Below, piece after piece: positions 1 to 9,454 of a stretch of 64,000 nucleotides of DNA. The stretch lies in NCBI RefSeq assembly GCF_005869935.1, contig NZ_SZQF01000001.1, positions 186,001 to 250,000 of the forward strand, in the 5' to 3' direction. A program made the translations under genes and the position numbers. The notes under the pieces were generated by a model, which saw only the letters and a program-made list of their open reading frames with translations, was not told where the DNA came from and did no database searches. This stretch comes from Winogradskyella algicola (GTDB lineage: Bacteria > Bacteroidota > Bacteroidia > Flavobacteriales > Flavobacteriaceae). Each line of letters starts with the position of its first letter. Position 1 is the first letter of the stretch.

Positions 1-252
1 ATAGTAACTTCAGCCATAATCAGTGCGATGACAGCGCGCTAAAAAAGGAAATCATATTGATTTTGTCTTTTAACTTTTAGTCATAACAGTAACTACTTTT
101 GAAATTACAAATCAGTAATTCAAAGTATATCTGAGATTGCTTATTGTTGAACACTAATAGTTACTATTAAAGCCAATCTACAATCTACTATTTCGTCATT
201 TTTGTTGAGTAGTGTTACGGACTACTTGTCTATCAGTTTTATAAGATGATAA

Positions 253-328
253 GCTTTGGTGGCCACCCTTTGCCCTAAAAGCTGCATTTACAGTGCAGTG
301 TCTACTCTTCCAATTGAGTTACAAAAGC
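253..328 (-). tRNA. aberrant tRNA-like gene, anticodon GTA
   Basis: Read on the minus strand, a perfect anticodon arm (CTGCA/TGCAG around CTGTAAA) and a perfect D stem (ACTC/GAGT) can be drawn. GCTTTTG and CCAAAGC form a 6-of-7 acceptor. The T-loop consensus TTCRA is missing and the T arm is only a weak GGC/GCC pair. The anticodon would be GTA (Tyr), but the long variable arm of bacterial tRNA-Tyr is absent. This is probably a decayed or highly divergent tRNA. A canonical-looking tRNA-Tyr lies at the other end of the array. Confidence 0.4.
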
Positions 329-331
329 CAA

Positions 332-345
332 CGAGGATTTCCTCG
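332..345. repeat. short perfect hairpin between tRNA-like genes
   Basis: CGAGG and CCTCG pair around the loop ATTT. The hairpin sits between two aberrant tRNA-like genes. It may be a processing signal or a small repeat. There is no T-tract, so it is not a convincing terminator. Confidence 0.4.
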
Positions 346-409
346 AGCTAATGACCGGACTCGAACCGGTAACAAGACAACCTATTGTTCTAACCTACTG
401 AACTATCTC
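345..409 (-). tRNA. compact tRNA-like gene, possible anticodon GTC
   Basis: The minus strand shows a strong T arm (ACCGG, TTCGAGT, CCGGT), a D arm (GTTC...GAAC) and an AACAA/TTGTT anticodon stem with a nine-base loop holding GTC. The acceptor pairs at about 5-6 of 7 positions. There is no room for a variable loop. It resembles a shortened tRNA-Asp. Whether it is functional is doubtful. Confidence 0.4.
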
Positions 410-414
410 ATATG

Positions 415-490
415 AACTGAGAGTGGGAATCGAACCCACGACCTATAGAATCGGAGACTATTTTTTGGTTAACAGTCAAAACCTTCAAGT
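415..490 (-). tRNA. tRNA-Arg(CCG)-like
   Basis: The T arm GTGGG-TTCGATT-CCCAC and variable loop AGGTC are canonical on the minus strand. The anticodon loop CTCCGAT reads CCG (Arg) on an ATAG/CTAT stem. The D arm is unusual: a TTTTG/CAAAA stem with the loop ACTGTTAAC. The acceptor ACTTGAA/TCTCAGT is poorly paired. Its 5' end overlaps the acceptor of the next upstream tRNA-like gene by about two bases. Confidence 0.45.
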
Positions 491-567
491 CTAGTTGAAC
501 ATAAAACGAGATACATCTCTGCATCGCATTATGCAATAGTGCTATACCGAAACACCCAACAAGACCA
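489..567 (-). tRNA. degenerate tRNA-like sequence with embedded hairpin repeat
   Basis: GTCTTGT and ACTAGAC would pair at 6 of 7 positions as an acceptor, about 77 bases apart on the minus strand, and a D-loop-like TTTCGGTATA is visible. The middle is occupied by AATGCGATGCA followed by the near-palindrome GAGATGTATCTC, a repeat type seen in neighbouring tRNAs. No normal anticodon or T arm can be drawn. I treat it as a tRNA destroyed or remodelled by a REP-like insertion. Confidence 0.3.
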
Positions 568-581
568 GCTTGATATTCTTT

Positions 582-606
582 GCCTCACTCAAAATTTGAA
601 TGAGGC
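582..606. terminator. hairpin downstream of the small ORF
   Basis: GCCTCACTCAAA and the following TTTGAATGAGGC form an almost perfect hairpin directly downstream of the minus-strand ORF at 615-926. No T-tract follows on the minus strand, so it may be a stabilising or processing hairpin rather than an intrinsic terminator. Confidence 0.45.
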
Positions 607-614
607 GGTTAAAC

Positions 615-926
615 TTATTTTCTTTGATGCAACGCATCTCTTCTATCAATTTCAGCTAACGGACTTCCCGTAAAAACTCCAATATTATTAAATCCGTTTT
701 CTTCTGTTATTAAGGATTCCTCTTCCTTAACAGCACCTATACGTTTATTACCATAATCGCCAGTCAGTTTTTTTGTTGCAGGATCAAAATCTCCCCATAA
801 CGCATTTGGCTTGCCATTATCTATTGGCTCAACGAAATAGATAATACCTGTAACTTGAGATTTAACAATAAATCGTCCACTATCTTCCGTTTTAAACAAA
901 AACCTTTTTAAAATGTCATTTCTCAT
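615..926 (-). CDS. hypothetical protein embedded in the tRNA array
   Basis: This 103-residue protein is encoded on the same strand as the flanking tRNAs, between the Arg(CCG)-like region and tRNA-Phe. I do not recognise the family. It is hydrophilic with no signal peptide or membrane segment. Motif-like stretches are GIIYFVEPIDNGKPNALWGDFD and a GDYGNKRIGA turn; the composition looks like a real globular protein rather than a frame shadow. The last residues (RRDALHQRK) are encoded by a short hairpin repeat, GATGC-GTT-GCATC, of the same style as the repeats that interrupt neighbouring tRNAs, so the C-terminus may have been altered by repeat insertion. The ATG start at 926 lies about 20 bases downstream of the tRNA-Phe 3' end, so it may be co-transcribed with the tRNAs. 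Confidence 0.6.
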   Translation of the reverse strand: MRNDILKRFLFKTEDSGRFIVKSQVTGIIYFVEPIDNGKPNALWGDFDPATKKLTGDYGNKRIGAVKEEESLITEENGFNNIGVFTGSPLAEIDRRDALHQRK

Positions 927-948
927 AATTGCTAAATTTAAACTTTAG

Positions 949-1021
949 TGGAACAGACAGGACTCGAACCTGTATCGCCAGATCTTCAAACTGGTGCATT
1001 GACCAACTTTGCTACTGTTCC
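949..1021 (-). tRNA. tRNA-Phe(GAA)
   Basis: Complete cloverleaf on the minus strand: acceptor GGAACAG/CTGTTCC with A as discriminator, anticodon loop TTGAAGA (GAA), variable loop CGATA, T arm ACAGG-TTCGAGT-CCTGT. CCA is not encoded. The anticodon stem has one T-T mismatch. It appears intact. Confidence 0.88.
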
Positions 1022-1029
1022 AAAACTTT

Positions 1030-1123
1030 AGTGTCTATCAAGATTCGAACTTGATCTAGGTGGATATACCTCCCGTCCGATGAACTTGTACTGAGCACAG
1101 TCGAAGTATTACACTATAGACAC
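1030..1123 (-). tRNA. tRNA-like gene with REP-like insertion in the D-loop
   Basis: The acceptor GTGTCTA/TAGACAC pairs perfectly and the T arm TCAAG-TTCGAAT-CTTGA is canonical. Between the D-stem halves lies an extra segment carrying CTTCGACTGTGCTCAG (1089-1104), the core of a repeat found at five places in this window. Total length is 94 instead of about 73 bases. The anticodon arm is also odd (AGGT/ACCT with the six-base loop ATATCC), so identity is unresolved; Gly is possible. It is probably a pseudo-tRNA unless the insert is tolerated or removed. Confidence 0.5.
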
Positions 1124-1131
1124 TTTTTTTG

Positions 1132-1202
1132 ATAACCTGAATGGATTTGAACCATTACTTCAAGAGTCAAAGTCTTGAATGCTGCCCTTACACCACAGGT
1201 TA
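1132..1202 (-). tRNA. tRNA-Gln(TTG)
   Basis: Minus strand: acceptor TAACCTG/CAGGTTA fully paired, anticodon stem CAAGA/TCTTG around CTTTGAC (anticodon TTG), T arm ATGG-TTCAAAT-CCAT. Length 71. It looks intact. Confidence 0.85.
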
Positions 1203-1208
1203 ATATTG

Positions 1209-1280
1209 TAAGCTCAATAGGATTCGAACCCATACCTCAAAGTCCGTAGCTTTGAATGCTATCCATTACACCATAAGCTT
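1209..1280 (-). tRNA. tRNA-Arg(ACG)
   Basis: Minus strand: acceptor AAGCTTA/TGAGCTT, anticodon stem CAAAG/CTTTG around CTACGGA (anticodon ACG), variable loop AGGTA, T arm ATGGG-TTCGAAT-CCTAT. It looks intact. An ACG anticodon normally needs the TadA deaminase for wobble reading. Confidence 0.85.
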
Positions 1281-1284
1281 ATTG

Positions 1285-1402
1285 TACTCCACCCAAGACT
1301 CGAACTTAGACTTAAAGTTGCTTAAAACCAGAGCTACGCTCGGTGCCTTCGTAAAAACTATAGTTTTTACTTGCCAATCTCTTCCATTTGGGCTAGTGGA
1401 GC
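1285..1402 (-). tRNA. tRNA interrupted in the anticodon stem by a repeat (Leu(TAA)-like)
   Basis: The acceptor GCTCCAC/GTGGAGT and T arm CTAAG-TTCGAGT-CTTGG pair well on the minus strand, and a GCC/GGC D stem is present. About 40 extra bases lie inside the 5' half of the anticodon stem. They hold the inverted repeat GTAAAAAC/GTTTTTAC and a segment ending CACCGAGCGTAGCTCTGG, which resembles a dispersed hairpin repeat. The loop TTTTAAG next to CAACT suggests anticodon TAA (Leu), but the short variable region is atypical. It is probably inactive. Confidence 0.5.
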
Positions 1403-1406
1403 TTCA

Positions 1407-1488
1407 GTACAGGAAGAGAGATTCCCTTCGACTATACTCAGGATAAACTTCTCATCTTCTTCCTTACTTTGTACAGGAAGAGAGATTC
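1407..1488. repeat. REP-like element flanked by an 18-bp duplication of the tRNA-Leu 3' end
   Basis: The 18-bp sequence GTACAGGAAGAGAGATTC occurs at 1407-1424 and again at 1471-1488. The second copy is the T-loop-to-acceptor end of the adjacent tRNA-Leu. Between them lies a short repeat containing CCCTTCGACTATACTCAGG (1424-1442), nearly the same core as at 1921-1939. The arrangement looks like a miniature element inserted in the T-loop that regenerated the tRNA 3' end. Confidence 0.75.
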
Positions 1489-1544
1489 GAACTCCCAATT
1501 TCTCGATTCTAAATCGAGTGCGTTTACCATTTCGCCATTCCTGC
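1472..1544 (-). tRNA. tRNA-Leu(TAG) with short variable loop
   Basis: Minus strand: acceptor GCAGGAA/TTCCTGT, anticodon stem CTCGA/TCGAG around TTTAGAA (anticodon TAG), T arm GGGAG-TTCGAAT-CTCTC. The D arm (GCGAAATGGTAAACGC) is of Leu type. The variable loop is only AAATT, whereas bacterial tRNA-Leu normally has a long arm. It may be a reduced tRNA-Leu or may be read differently by synthetases. Confidence 0.75.
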
Positions 1545-1550
1545 AAATTG

Positions 1551-1676
1551 TTGAGATATTAGGATTAGTTCGTTTTGTATCTATTTTTATAAATAGGTAC
1601 TTATGAATGCTATGCATTTCGAACCTAAACTTTTCGCCTTATGAGAGCGATGCTCTGCCAATTAAGCTATATCTCA
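1551..1676 (-). tRNA. tRNA(CAT) split by a 53-base insertion in the T-loop
   Basis: The two outer ends pair perfectly as an acceptor (TGAGATA/TATCTCA). The D arm and anticodon arm (TCGCT-CTCATAA-GGCGA, anticodon CAT: Met or Ile2) are normal. The T stem halves TTAGG and CCTAA are both present, but the loop between them is 60 rather than 7 bases. The insert begins with the hairpin AATGC-ATA-GCATT and has further AT-rich pairing. Nothing essential is deleted, so the gene is interrupted rather than truncated. Confidence 0.7.
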
Positions 1677-1681
1677 ATTTG

Positions 1682-1754
1682 TACTCCGTAAGGGAATTGA
1701 ACCCTTAATTCCACATAGAAAGTGTGGCGTCTTAAACCATTTGACCAACGGAGC
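1682..1754 (-). tRNA. tRNA-Glu(TTC)
   Basis: Minus strand: acceptor GCTCCGT/ACGGAGT, anticodon stem CCACA/TGTGG around CTTTCTA (anticodon TTC), T arm AAGGG-TTCAATT-CCCTT, discriminator A. Complete and apparently intact. Confidence 0.87.
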
Positions 1755-1758
1755 AAAG

Positions 1759-1898
1759 CGGAGAGCAAAGGAATTATTCATGGCATACTTATTTTAATAA
1801 TTATGTATTCATGAATGCATCGCATTTGAACCTTCATTACCAAAAAGGTAAACTTACTTAGCAGGTAAGCGCAACAAACCAATATTTGCCTACTCTCC
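1759..1898 (-). tRNA. tRNA-Ser(GCT) split by a 52-base insertion in the T-loop
   Basis: The acceptor GGAGAGT/GCTCTCC and anticodon stem CTTAC/GTAAG around CTGCTAA (anticodon GCT) are good, and a type II variable arm (TTACC-TTTTT-GGTAA) is present. T stem halves GAAGG and CCTTT are both present. The T-loop is expanded from 7 to 59 bases by an insert that starts with the hairpin AATGC-GAT-GCATT followed by CATGAATAC. The insert is related to that in the neighbouring tRNA(CAT), at the same position after TTCRA. Confidence 0.7.
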
Positions 1899-1902
1899 AA
1901 AC

Positions 1903-1985
1903 TGCAGTACCGACGAGATTCCCTTCGACTGCGCTCAGGGTAAACTTCTCATCTCTTGTTCTGCTTTGCAGTACCGACGAGATTC
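1903..1985. repeat. REP-like element flanked by a 19-bp duplication of the tRNA-Asp 3' end
   Basis: TGCAGTACCGACGAGATTC occurs at 1903-1921 and at 1967-1985. The second copy is the acceptor plus T-loop part of tRNA-Asp. The 45-bp centre contains CCCTTCGACTGCGCTCAGGG (1921-1940). The structure parallels the element beside tRNA-Leu(TAG). Confidence 0.78.
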
Positions 1986-2040
1986 GAACTCGCAACTTCT
2001 CGGGAGACAACCGAGTGCTCTACCATTGAACTACGATACT
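1969..2040 (-). tRNA. tRNA-Asp(GTC)
   Basis: Minus strand: acceptor AGTATCG/CGGTACT, D arm GTTC-AATGGTA-GAGC, anticodon stem CTCGG/CCGAG around TTGTCTC (anticodon GTC), variable loop AAGTT, T arm GCGAG-TTCGAAT-CTCGT. Intact; its 3' end is duplicated 64 bp downstream around a REP-like core. Confidence 0.85.
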
Positions 2041-2045
2041 AGTTG

Positions 2046-2127
2046 TGGGAATCATAGGATTCGAACCTATTAAGCCTATGCATCAGTTTTACAGACTGAC
2101 TCCACTCTCCTACTTGGACGCATTCCC
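2046..2127 (-). tRNA. tRNA-Tyr(GTA)
   Basis: Minus strand: acceptor GGGAATG/GATTCCC (one mismatch at the base), anticodon stem TCAGT/ACTGA around CTGTAAA (anticodon GTA), a long variable arm as expected for bacterial tRNA-Tyr, T arm ATAGG-TTCGAAT-CCTAT, discriminator A. It is the first tRNA of the array in the direction of transcription. Confidence 0.87.
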
Positions 2128-2130
2128 ATT

Positions 2131-2181: not shown

Positions 2182-2763
2182 TTACAATAAATTATTCAAC
2201 CGATTCTGAAACCAACTTTTTGGTTGTGCTTCAGTCTCTTTTTTCACCTGATTTTCTAATATCCTGTTTTCGTTTGCCTGTGCTTTTCTTTTCTTTTTTA
2301 CACGAGACAACACGTTATCAACAAAACTTATAAAATCATCATTCAACGCTAATTGCTTTGCTTCTTTTAAAGCGCGTTCTGCGTCTTCAAACTGAGCCAT
2401 ACTCTCAAACAATTGACCTTGTGCCAGCGCTATACCAGCCTTATCTATACCTTTTACAGTCTTGGCAAAATCAATAACTTTTTGAGCTTCTTCAAAGTCC
2501 TCGTTATTGGTTAATAACCGTATGTAATCTGGATAAATATCTGTTAAATCCAATCTGCTCGCTAAGGCACTTTCGTAATATGTCTTAGCTGTTTCGTAAT
2601 CACCCAGTTGCTCTGCATATACTTTTGCCATTAAGTGCAAAGCTTTAGCATTTTCTGGGTCGTAAGACAACGCGTAGTGTAAGGCTTCTACTGCTTTTTC
2701 TAATTCCCAAGGGTATGCTTCAATGGCTCTAAACAAGTGTATGTTTTGTAATATATTTCCCAT
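2182..2763 (-). CDS. tetratricopeptide-repeat protein
   Basis: This 193-residue soluble protein has several degenerate TPR units: residues about 14-47 (WELEKAVEALHYALSYDPENAKAL), 50-85 (YGDYETAKTYYESAL-type unit), and units around 90-160 with NEDFEEAQKVIDFA and MAQFEDAERALKEA. The C-terminal 35 residues are charged and end in a W-x-Q-N-R-L-N-N-L-L segment. TPR proteins act as protein-interaction scaffolds; no catalytic motif is visible and no partner can be named. It has no signal peptide and is probably cytoplasmic. It lies upstream of and on the same strand as the tRNA array, separated by a hairpin. The ATG at 2763 is the natural start, as the first TPR begins soon after it. Confidence 0.8.
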   Translation of the reverse strand: MGNILQNIHLFRAIEAYPWELEKAVEALHYALSYDPENAKALHLMAKVYAEQLGDYETAKTYYESALASRLDLTDIYPDYIRLLTNNEDFEEAQKVIDFAKTVKGIDKAGIALAQGQLFESMAQFEDAERALKEAKQLALNDDFISFVDNVLSRVKKKRKAQANENRILENQVKKETEAQPKSWFQNRLNNLL

Positions 2764-6468: not shown

Positions 6469-7977
6469 ATGGTAGCATCAGACCAATGGGTAACCTACAT
6501 GTATATTTTACTAGCAGTTTATGCTTTAGTTATACTCTATTTTGTAATACGAGGAGCTCGAAAAAACACCAATATTAAAGATTATGCAGTTGGGAATTTA
6601 GGTTTTCCTGCTTGGGTCGTTGGTTTGTCTTTAGCTGCGTCTATGACAAGTGCAGCTACATTTATAATCAATCCTGGTTTTATTGCACTTTATGGTTTTT
6701 CTGGAATTATTTCATTCGCTATTGTACTGCCTATTGCGGCATTTATTTCACTCATAGTATTTACTAAAGGTTTTGTAAAGCAAGGAAATGCGGTAAAAGC
6801 CACGACCATGGCACAGTGGATTGGCAAACGCTATAAGAGTAAAAATTATGCCTTTTTCTTCGGAATTATTGCCTTGCTTTTAATCACTTTTATTGTGCTT
6901 ATTAATGTTGGTTTAACACAAGTCATCTCAAAAGCACTAAATGCAGACCCATTCTATATTTTGCTCTCTATAACTACTTTTGTGTTTGGCTACATGATGT
7001 TTGGAGGTGCAAATTCTATGGTTTATACCAATACTATTCAGGCAGTAATTATGTTTATTGTCGCTTTAATTTTAATAGGCTCTGGTTGGGAGTTCTTTTC
7101 AGAAGGTATAGGTGGTATAGTAAAAAAACTAAATGTAATTGATCCTAACCTTACAAAGCCTACTAACGAGAGTAGTTTTCTTTTTAGAGACTATTTTGAA
7201 ATTATTGCCACACAAATAGTCATTGGCGTTGCTATTGTTTGTCAACCTCATATTATCACCAAATCGCTTTTACTCAAAGATTCTAGCAAAATAAACACCT
7301 ATTTAGCTAGTGGAATCATCTTTATGATCGTATTCTTTTTGGTAGTAATTGTAGGCCTTTATGCCAGAATTAGTTTTCCAGATTTTATGGTAAACGGCAA
7401 TAAATTAAAAATGGATGAAATCATTCCAACCTACGTAGTTACCAAGTTTTCTGTTGGTGTTGGGCTAATTATTGTTGTTGGCTTAATTTCAGCAGGACTT
7501 TCAACACTAGAAAGTTTAATTCAATCATTGTCGATCACCATTACTTCAGATATCATAGATCCTATTTCAAAAAACAAGCTAGGAAGCAAAACCATCATGG
7601 TAAATAAAATGGTTATTATCGGTTTAGCCATCGTCAGCTTTGTTTTGAGCTGGCAACAAATTAAGTCGCCCGACGTAAGCGTAGCTATTTTTGCTCAGAA
7701 TGGTGTATATGCCTATTTCGCCGCAGCTTTTGTTCCTGTTCTATTTGGTACATTCTTAAAAAACGTAAGTACACGTTCTGTACTTATTGCTAGTATTACA
7801 GCTATTGTAGTGCACTTTGGCATATATTACGGAAGATTAACACCATACATGCAAGAACCTGTAAATAATCCTGGAGTATCAGCCGCTATCGGAATTGTTT
7901 CTTCGTTAATTATAGGATTCGTATTTTACAAACTAGATTTAAATAAACAACGTGAATACGCTAGACTGGACCGCTAA
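6469..7977 (+). CDS. sodium:solute symporter (SSS family)
   Basis: The 502-residue membrane protein has about 13 predicted hydrophobic helices, as usual for the SSS/SLC5 fold. Typical SSS motifs are seen in the first helices (NLGFPAWVVGLSLAASMTSAATFI, about 42-65) and the GLISAGLSTLESLIQSLS stretch around 345-362. The family imports organic acids, sugars, amino acids or similar molecules with Na+; the substrate cannot be read directly. It is the first gene of a run in which the next reading frame overlaps its end by 26 bp. The context with an acyl-CoA ligase and a 3-hydroxybutyrate dehydrogenase-like enzyme suggests a short-chain hydroxy or carboxylic acid. An inverted-repeat operator candidate lies upstream. 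Confidence 0.92.
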   Translation: MVASDQWVTYMYILLAVYALVILYFVIRGARKNTNIKDYAVGNLGFPAWVVGLSLAASMTSAATFIINPGFIALYGFSGIISFAIVLPIAAFISLIVFTKGFVKQGNAVKATTMAQWIGKRYKSKNYAFFFGIIALLLITFIVLINVGLTQVISKALNADPFYILLSITTFVFGYMMFGGANSMVYTNTIQAVIMFIVALILIGSGWEFFSEGIGGIVKKLNVIDPNLTKPTNESSFLFRDYFEIIATQIVIGVAIVCQPHIITKSLLLKDSSKINTYLASGIIFMIVFFLVVIVGLYARISFPDFMVNGNKLKMDEIIPTYVVTKFSVGVGLIIVVGLISAGLSTLESLIQSLSITITSDIIDPISKNKLGSKTIMVNKMVIIGLAIVSFVLSWQQIKSPDVSVAIFAQNGVYAYFAAAFVPVLFGTFLKNVSTRSVLIASITAIVVHFGIYYGRLTPYMQEPVNNPGVSAAIGIVSSLIIGFVFYKLDLNKQREYARLDR

Positions 7978-9454
7978 ATGGGCTGATTACACGCCAAACA
8001 AAATTGCACTTACCTCTTACGATAGTGGTGAGCAATACTCATATAGCGATCTTAATACCTACGCTAATCGTTTAGTAGCAAAATTCAAAAAAAATGGATT
8101 ACAAGAAGGTGACAGAGTAGCTGTTTTAGCAGAGCATGGCCTAGAATACATTGTTCTATTTGTAGCTTGCCAACGCCTGGGAATTATCTTGGTGCCATTA
8201 AACTATAGGTTCTCTGTTAACGAAATCCAAAAGCTGATTTTAGACTGTACACCTAGTCTATTTATTTATAGTAATAATCACTCTGAAAAGTACGAAGCGC
8301 TAAATATTACAAGTAAACATAGCTTTAACATTAAAGATGTTAGACATTTTTATTTAGATGATACTGTAAATAATGAATCTACAACTTATAAAATAAAGGA
8401 AAACAGTCCACTATTTATATTCTATACTTCTGGTACAACAGGACGACCGAAAGGTGTCATTTACACTAATAAAATGTTGTTTTGGAATAGTTTAAATACA
8501 TCCATGCAGCTAGGGATAACATTTAGAGACTCTACTATAAATACACTTCCACCCTATCATACTTCGGGTTGGAATGTGTTTTTAACACCTTTGTTACACA
8601 AAGGAGCACATATTGGTATGCTAGAGAAGTTTAACCCCAGAAAAGTGCTTCAACTTTTAGAGGCTAACAGGACGACTCTTTTTATGGCTTTGCCAACCAT
8701 GTTGTTAATGATGCAAAAAGAACCATGCTTTAAAACTATTAGCTTAAAAAAATTAAGATATATAATCTCAGGAGGGGAAAAAGTACCACCAGAATTAGTC
8801 TCGCATTGGAAAAACGAAAAGAACATCTACATAAGGCCAGGTTATGGCCTTACAGAAGCAGGTCCAAGTATTACTTCGCTTCATCATAAAATGGCACAAT
8901 TAAAACCTAACTCTATAGGAAAACCCAACTTCTATCTCGAAACTAAAATTGTGGATAAGAACGGAAAAATTGTAAAAAACAACACCATTGGAGAACTTTG
9001 TATTAAGGGCAATATCGTAACTCCAGGGTATTGGAACAACTCTGTAGCCACGAGTAATAGCATTAAAAGAGGCTGGCTCTTTACAGGTGATTTTGCTTAT
9101 AAAGATCGTGAAGGCTACCTATATGTAAAAGGGCGTAAAAACGACATGTATATTTCGGGTGGAGAAAATATTTATCCTCAGGAAATAGAAACCCACCTAG
9201 AAGCATTAGCTGGCATTAAAAAAGCTGTGGTTTTAAGTATAAAAGATGAAAAATGGGGAGAATGTGGCATTGCTTTTGTTACAGCAACAAATAAAGCATT
9301 AACAGCACAAGATATAAGAGAACTTTTAAAGGAAAGATTAGTGGCTTACAAACATCCTAAGTACATTTTCTTCTTAGACGATATACCATTAACGAGTATC
9401 GGAAAAGTATCTAGAATAAAATTATTGAAGTATTTCAATTCGATAAAAACTTAA
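7952..9454 (+). CDS. AMP-dependent acyl-CoA synthetase/ligase
   Basis: The 500-residue ANL-family enzyme activates a carboxylic acid as acyl-AMP and then acyl-CoA. Motifs are clear: P-loop-like YTSGTTGRPKGV (about 157-168), GYGLTEAGP (about 298-306), the hinge and C-terminal GRKNDMYISGGENIYPQEIE (about 396-415), and the catalytic Lys near the end in TSIGKVSRIKL. The start is a GTG inside the end of the symporter gene; NTLDWTAKWADYTPNKIAL matches the usual family N-terminus and no in-frame ATG lies nearby. Translational coupling with the symporter is likely. Acid specificity (acetoacetate, a hydroxyacid or fatty acid) is inferred only from neighbours. Confidence 0.92.
   Translation: MNTLDWTAKWADYTPNKIALTSYDSGEQYSYSDLNTYANRLVAKFKKNGLQEGDRVAVLAEHGLEYIVLFVACQRLGIILVPLNYRFSVNEIQKLILDCTPSLFIYSNNHSEKYEALNITSKHSFNIKDVRHFYLDDTVNNESTTYKIKENSPLFIFYTSGTTGRPKGVIYTNKMLFWNSLNTSMQLGITFRDSTINTLPPYHTSGWNVFLTPLLHKGAHIGMLEKFNPRKVLQLLEANRTTLFMALPTMLLMMQKEPCFKTISLKKLRYIISGGEKVPPELVSHWKNEKNIYIRPGYGLTEAGPSITSLHHKMAQLKPNSIGKPNFYLETKIVDKNGKIVKNNTIGELCIKGNIVTPGYWNNSVATSNSIKRGWLFTGDFAYKDREGYLYVKGRKNDMYISGGENIYPQEIETHLEALAGIKKAVVLSIKDEKWGECGIAFVTATNKALTAQDIRELLKERLVAYKHPKYIFFLDDIPLTSIGKVSRIKLLKYFNSIKT

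Follow-up and report, generated by a model that had tools for sequence, protein, structure and literature searches.

Hairpin insertions in the T-loops of spare tRNA genes of Winogradskyella algicola and its relatives as probable copies of a miniature mobile DNA element

Two interrupted tRNA genes in a spare tRNA array

The DNA analysed here (the window, 64,000 nucleotides of contig C10 in the 3.36-Mb genome of Winogradskyella algicola) carries a supernumerary and partly damaged tRNA array on the reverse strand (about 240..2130), comprising the Phe, Gln, Arg, Leu, Glu, Asp and Tyr tRNAs detected by ARAGORN together with two interrupted genes. The array encloses a 103-residue open reading frame (615..926, reverse strand) that has no Pfam match at E ≤ 0.001 and is adjoined by the gene of a TPR protein (2182..2763, reverse strand); by eye, ORFs like the 103-residue one adjoin the arrays in loci L070 and L075. 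Two further array tRNAs (window 1025-1126 and 1281-1400) show, on visual inspection, apparent repeat insertions in the D-arm region. Because the genome encodes tRNAs for all 20 amino acids outside the array, including Ser(GCT), three CAT tRNAs, Leu(TAG), Glu and Arg(ACG), the array is redundant; other copies of both interrupted tRNAs, which an earlier note on this DNA had proposed to look for, are thus present elsewhere in the genome.

The interrupted tRNA-Ser(GCT) (1759..1898, reverse strand) contains a 52-nt hairpin element (ATGC...ATAA; 1774..1825, reverse strand) at the site TTCAA^TT, and the interrupted CAT-anticodon tRNA, called Met by ARAGORN (1551..1676, reverse strand), contains a 53-nt hairpin element (ATGC...CTAA; 1565..1617, reverse strand) at TTCGAA^T. 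Both elements are supported by comparison of empty and filled sites, by a covariance model and by excision. Left uncut in the window, neither tRNA appears in the output of ARAGORN or Rfam (gathering cut-offs). In-silico excision yields tRNA-Ser(GCT) and tRNA-Met(CAT), each with a 7-nt T-loop and without a mismatch among its 12 acceptor and T-stem pairs. The earlier note had described T-loops of 59 (Ser) and 60 (CAT) bases, interrupted at TTCRA, with all stems still complementary; the loop lengths and the acceptor and T stems found here agree with this description.

The array loci of the relatives G031 and G034 hold 21 and 22 ARAGORN tRNAs, respectively. A tRNA array unit is a compact cluster that covers most amino acids in a genome whose housekeeping set is complete; these loci fit that pattern, and W. 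algicola has a reduced array together with its complete set elsewhere. GOLLD-like RNAs occur at both loci (121 and 149.9 bits, respectively; cut-off 150), and RtcB genes lie within about 6 kb of both arrays. Other neighbours are probable PrfH, SPFH and metallophosphatase genes. The W. algicola genome retains an SPFH-like gene, the 103-residue ORF and the TPR protein; no RtcB match was found in this genome, and 27 of the 68 genomes of the genus have one. GOLLD-like RNAs scoring 75-150 bits, below the cut-off of 150, were also seen near Flavobacterial tRNA arrays at loci L070, L073, L074, L075 and L079. The simplest view of the W. algicola array is that of a decaying spare tRNA island that tolerates insertions.

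Empty and filled sites in related genomes

The search for the same tRNAs without insert in relatives, likewise proposed in the earlier note, returned array orthologues of tRNA-Ser(GCT) that were insert-free in all seven other genomes whose array loci were compared, and orthologues of the CAT tRNA that were insert-free in five of six; the sixth, in G045, is filled at the same place. These empty orthologues rule out that the 3' acceptor match of either tRNA is chance pairing and that the real tRNA ends elsewhere, one of the outcomes that the note had named as fatal to its reading. Since empty orthologues exist and the family model described below matches the W. algicola genome exactly at these two sites, the observation is not a matter of chance; tRNA genes occupy about 0.1% of that genome, and both matches sit in tRNA T-loops. 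By eye, the body of the W. algicola CAT tRNA is closest to the empty gene of G044, and that of G045 to another empty gene, that of G031, a relationship suggesting either that the two genes were hit separately or that arrays have exchanged material.

Inserts were also found in Lys(TTT) of W. flava (G012) and in a tRNA called Tyr(ATA) by ARAGORN in W. echinorum (G007). Outside the genus, a query consisting of one interrupted Leu(TAA) gene of Aquimarina matched 26 of 66 Aquimarina genomes. The Leu(TAA) site is filled in five genomes, one of which has a truncated element and a damaged tRNA, and 12 empty copies were read alongside. One Aquimarina subfamily of the element, whose members are alike by eye, occupies Leu, Gln and Arg T-loops, the close orthologues of which are empty. 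Judged from these alignments, the Aquimarina pattern would be better accounted for by repeated insertion than by long-term maintenance. Two targets outside tRNA genes, GCAA^TTTCC and GGCAA^AATGAAC, likewise occur both empty and filled among copies of one repeat.

Spread of the element family

A covariance model built from 26 copies, both window copies included, matched 55 of 68 Winogradskyella genomes (E ≤ 0.01) and, in the wider family Flavobacteriaceae, 89 of 397 genomes (E ≤ 1e-4), with stricter filters in both searches that lose weak matches. The W. algicola genome contains exactly two matches (E ≤ 0.01), namely the two inserts of the window. Searching for the exact T-loop pattern across 84,980 species genomes returned at least 119 stretches, and IMG/VR contributed 22 loci. 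Among the at least 147 pattern matches from both sources together, excision restored a tRNA in at least 18, all with Bacteroidota titles, and in none of the 22 IMG/VR loci; several of the rest look like family members by eye, and the remainder like chance matches.

A geometric scan of the collected loci, allowing one mismatch at most in a stem of five and demanding a 7-nt loop after excision, gave 47 candidates, at least two of which (L077 and L196) are false positives by eye. ARAGORN restored a tRNA in 34 of the 47 after excision: 32 are sense insertions in the T-arm, distributed over 12 ARAGORN isotypes (Tyr(ATA) being doubtful), and two are antisense insertions in the anticodon arm of Arg(TCG). 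Two more antisense insertions in anticodon arms were read by eye, one in G045 (probably Trp, with no clear ARAGORN isotype) and one in G418 (probably Arg(TCT), with no restored tRNA seen). The restored cases span Winogradskyella, Aquimarina, Psychroserpens, Cellulophaga, Maribacter, Lacinutrix, Bizionia and other genera. For 33 of the 34, two or more additional tRNAs are found no farther than 700 bases away, the exception being Pro in W. psychrotolerans, where ARAGORN detects no other tRNA in the 8-kb locus.

A phage or plasmid origin was rejected, as a search of 50,697 phage records and 72,556 plasmid records gave no match to the CAT-tRNA locus at E ≤ 0.001. A gene-carrying copy was sought in the 68 genomes with the pattern AATGC..GCATTCAYGA, and the one match outside the collected loci proved to be an ordinary short copy. 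Loci L090, L146 and L088 contain intergenic arrays of repeat units of ~250-500 bp that hold one or two element copies; the L090 array adjoins a gene whose 3' end is repeated, and this gene resembles those of NYN-domain nucleases.

Target sites

Every one of the 34 restored insertions has C/G-AA at the end of its left flank, and its right flank supplies the rest of the loop. Most of these targets read TTCGAA^T or TTCGAA^C and the others TTCAA^TT, TTCAA^AT or TTCGAA^A, with one changed base in a few. Copies outside tRNA genes mostly follow C/G-AA, and some follow TAA. One such target, TTCAA^TCCCTAACGC, was seen where a large repeat ends; in one locus its neighbour is a match to Flavo-1 RNA (RF01705) whose 31.7 bits fall short of the cut-off of 42. 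Several of the non-tRNA targets are palindromic by eye. The element inserts precisely, without target-site duplication or with a duplication of at most 2 bp (AA).

The earlier note had suggested, as one of two alternatives, that a mobile hairpin repeat targets the conserved T-loop. This alternative is strongly supported by the empty sites, by the many tRNAs and genera affected and by the copies at other loci. As the element is also present in antisense anticodon loops and in intergenic repeats, it seems to recognise hairpin loops that contain C/G-AA, and not just the T-loop.

Anatomy and pairing of the element

The element is 47-55 nt long and has the structure NAA^[hairpin 1]-TCA-Y-GA-R-N-W-C-[arm 2]-N-Y-GA-R-(C)TAA^. 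Hairpin 1 is mostly AATGC-NNN-GCATT, and at the foot of the second arm a tandem G·A motif is framed by covarying Watson-Crick pairs. Of 73 non-redundant copies, 66, 62 and 64 show strict Watson-Crick pairing at the three positions surrounding this motif, compared with means of 34.6, 39.2 and 37.2 and maxima of 51, 51 and 50 for the same pairs in 5000 shuffles of the 3' letters, a control that leaves relatedness in place and a set that includes a few doubtful members. Control pairings slid to the wrong partner gave Watson-Crick pairs in 2 and 2 of the 73 copies. The pairs themselves vary between C-G and T-A, between A-T, G-C and C-G, and between T-A and C-G, respectively.

The inner stem of hairpin 1 was required when its 87 copies were collected, so that its variety alone is informative: ATGC/GCAT occurs 59 times, ATAC/GTAT five times, ATGT/ACAT and AATC/GATT four times each and ATCC/GGAT twice. 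The loop of hairpin 1 has 3 nt in 71 of the 87 copies; GNA accounts for 24 of these 71, compared with ~6% expected from composition. RNAalifold, applied to the first 26 copies, predicted hairpin 1 alone and no compensatory pair, and DNA folding of five single copies was moderately better than that of shuffles (z −0.9 to −3.9). The alignments indicate that pairing within the element is constrained. GNA loops of three bases and G·A pairs in tandem have especially high stability in DNA, and these features, together with the antisense insertions, favour single-stranded DNA over RNA as the moving form.

Mobile DNA or T-loop introns

In our reading, to which we give a probability of roughly 0.74, the inserts belong to a family of non-autonomous mobile DNA, about 47-55 nt long, whose members would travel as folded single strands and land in hairpin loops. 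The target, folded in turn, would expose its cleavage site within the loop. Some transposase or recombinase would have to act in trans, and none was found. Insertions would persist in spare tRNA clusters because the tRNAs there are dispensable, and the interrupted tRNAs are probably non-functional. In W. algicola the hit genes look dispensable, because tRNAs for all 20 amino acids are encoded elsewhere and no RtcB was detected. Some points count against this reading. Copy number is low, at 1-13 per element-bearing genome with filters that lose weak matches, so that the element may or may not still be moving, and some of the non-tRNA copies may have spread inside larger repeats. In addition, no excess of decay was measurable in the interrupted tRNAs relative to their neighbours, which speaks against dead genes: stems are perfect in 18 of 22 interrupted tRNAs (rows in the correct cutting frame, chosen by eye) and in 226 of 266 uninserted neighbours (p=0.76), and TTC is kept in 33 of 37 and 404 of 421, respectively (p=0.08), or in 22 of 25 interrupted genes when loci from the TTC-bearing pattern are left out (p=0.09), although the comparison is weak either way, ARAGORN detection favouring intact genes.

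The main alternative to mobile DNA is that the inserts are T-loop introns, which would fold as RNA and be removed by an endonuclease or by the RNA itself, with an RtcB-type ligase joining the halves into functional tRNAs. The flanking stems that are intact in 18 of 22 restored cases, the covarying pairs within the insert and the RtcB genes near the array in several insert-bearing relatives (G020, G025, G031, G041 and G045) would all suit introns. However, RtcB went undetected not only in W. algicola but also in G007, G012 and G044, all of which have inserts, and across the genus RtcB is not tied to the element, being present in 24 of 55 element-bearing and 3 of 13 element-free genomes (p=0.22). 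Moreover, 33 of the 34 restored insertions are in tRNA clusters rather than lone genes (redundancy was checked in W. algicola), and the same element also lies between genes. An intron would always be in sense within its host gene, whereas two of the restored insertions, and two more read by eye, are antisense; the two restored ones lie in anticodon arms and cannot be introns of the tRNA concerned. Two inserted Leu(TAA) genes of Aquimarina differ by compensatory changes in the T stem, which were considered as a sign of function and discarded: both stem versions also occur in empty genes across the genus, and the changes can predate insertion. For group I or II introns, Rfam gave no match in the window (gathering cut-offs) nor, among the matches listed, over sets of 16 and 10 loci (E-value thresholds). 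The suggestion in the earlier note that these tRNAs are spliced or tolerate the insert thus finds no support in the redundant hit genes and missing RtcB of W. algicola or in the antisense insertions elsewhere, and we regard introns as very improbable.

The mobilising enzyme

One way of filling in the mobilising step would be a Y1 transposase of the IS200/IS605 or TnpA-REP type, with the element as its REP-like sequence or MITE. The style is the same, with hairpins and insertion 3' of a fixed short motif (mostly C/G-AA^) without duplication, a 2-bp AA repeat being possible; in addition, the target TTCR pairs with YGAA in four of five DNA folds, inside the element in two and at its end in two. 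The TnpA-REP subclass 2.6 of Bacteroidetes is described in PMC6006769 with flanking atypical structures and with copies elsewhere. Against this, a PF01797 search over the 68 genomes gave 31 with a match, and at none of the 30 Y1 loci taken for the element search did an element match (E ≤ 1) lie within about 1.5 kb, where copies flanking the Y1 gene would be expected. Y1 matches occur in 26 of 55 element-bearing and 5 of 13 element-free genomes (p=0.76); for a Y1 domain fused to HemF the corresponding counts are 23 and 3 (p=0.34). The four Y1 genes inspected are surrounded by other repeats, and the element alignments show by eye no GT[AG]G foot, the mark of canonical REPs; subclass 2.6 REPs are likewise reported to have no such foot (PMC6006769). 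On this evidence we hold Y1 mobilisation to be rather unlikely.

More doubtful still is a minimal recombination site comparable to a gene-less integron attC, whose folded strand would be inserted by a tyrosine recombinase at (C/G/T)AA^. The joint of a circularised copy, TAA^ATGC, would match the target (C/G)AA^, and in a Cytophagaceae genome tRNA-Thr is followed by four tandem units, each with a terminal element-like hairpin and a repeat of the tRNA 3' end. The core motif of attC is GTTRRRY/RYYYAAC; no such motif was noticed in the element. Tentatively, and at somewhat less than even odds, we propose that the mobile element belongs to an undescribed class of miniature single-stranded DNA elements that land in folded hairpin loops (T-arm in sense, anticodon arm in antisense, palindromic repeats), carry hairpins of DNA type and depend on an enzyme other than Y1.

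As a separate observation, the W. algicola genome (L222 1474-2970; C10 about 280296) contains a Y1 domain of REP type fused in frame to coproporphyrinogen III oxidase (HemF). This gene has inverted repeats of its own before the start and in the linker, and its Y1 part has matches in 26 of the 68 genomes of the genus.

Relation to known systems

Like REPs, REPINs and IS200/IS605-type MITEs, the element is short, non-autonomous and hairpin-forming, and it lies 3' of a short motif without duplication, insertion of the IS200/IS605 type producing no target duplication. Unlike them, it has neither a linked Y1 gene nor a GT[AG]G foot, and it often lands in hairpin loops, repeatedly those of tRNA genes. 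Rickettsia palindromic elements are also short palindromic elements inside genes; compared by description rather than by sequence, the present element differs in having one exact target, the T-loop after TTCRA. Archaeal tRNA introns occur at non-canonical positions and resemble the inserts in lying within a tRNA arm, but the element also has antisense and intergenic copies, which speak against its being an intron. For IS608, insertion 3' of TTAC and pairing of the cleavage sites with guide sequences in the element are described in PMC5934647. The Mycobacterium tRNA array units contain extra tRNAs for most amino acids, with GOLLD RNA in or near some clusters, according to PMC12803027 and PMC6582537; in contrast, the arrays described here belong to Flavobacteriaceae, lie near RtcB in several relatives and carry T-loop insertions.

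Literature searches covering tRNA introns, insertions into T-loops and palindromic elements within tRNA genes found nothing describing such inserts. As far as these searches go, a miniature mobile hairpin is a known kind of element, and its recurrent, exact and strand-flexible use of tRNA loops is apparently undescribed. The same tRNA loop is hit across many isotypes and several genera with matched empty sites, which makes the target rule directly testable and supplies a natural test of which chromosomal hairpins in bacteria can be reached as single strands, and a view on how small DNA parasites pick hairpin-shaped targets. More than 30 tRNA genes have a T-loop enlarged from 7 to about 54-60 nt, raising the question of whether any can still be processed, and in several relatives the arrays lie close to the gene of the RNA ligase RtcB.

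Repeat units behind intact tRNA genes

A different kind of repeat was seen behind uninterrupted tRNA genes. In the window, tRNA-Leu and tRNA-Asp (1407-1544 and 1903-2040) are each followed by a 64-bp unit that contains a CCTGAG..GTCGAAGG repeat and, starting at the T-loop, the tRNA 3' end for a second time. Elsewhere in the W. algicola genome (L423 1850-2450; C43 about 7850-8450), the housekeeping tRNA-Thr(TGT) is followed by approximately four tandem units of roughly 113 bp, each closing with the final 17 nt of the tRNA in plain or degenerate form. These units behind tRNA-Leu, tRNA-Asp and tRNA-Thr are similar to the tyrT 3'-end repeats (rtT) of E. coli, which begin in the T-loop of the tRNA gene; they repeat the tRNA 3' end behind an intact tRNA, unlike the 52-nt element, which interrupts it. 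Element-like hairpins with G+C-rich second arms also lie behind intact tRNAs in the Cytophagaceae locus L378 (3964-4700; tRNA-Thr) and in L370 of Ekhidna lutea; in both, the tRNA 3' end is repeated and the T-arm recurs in inverted orientation.
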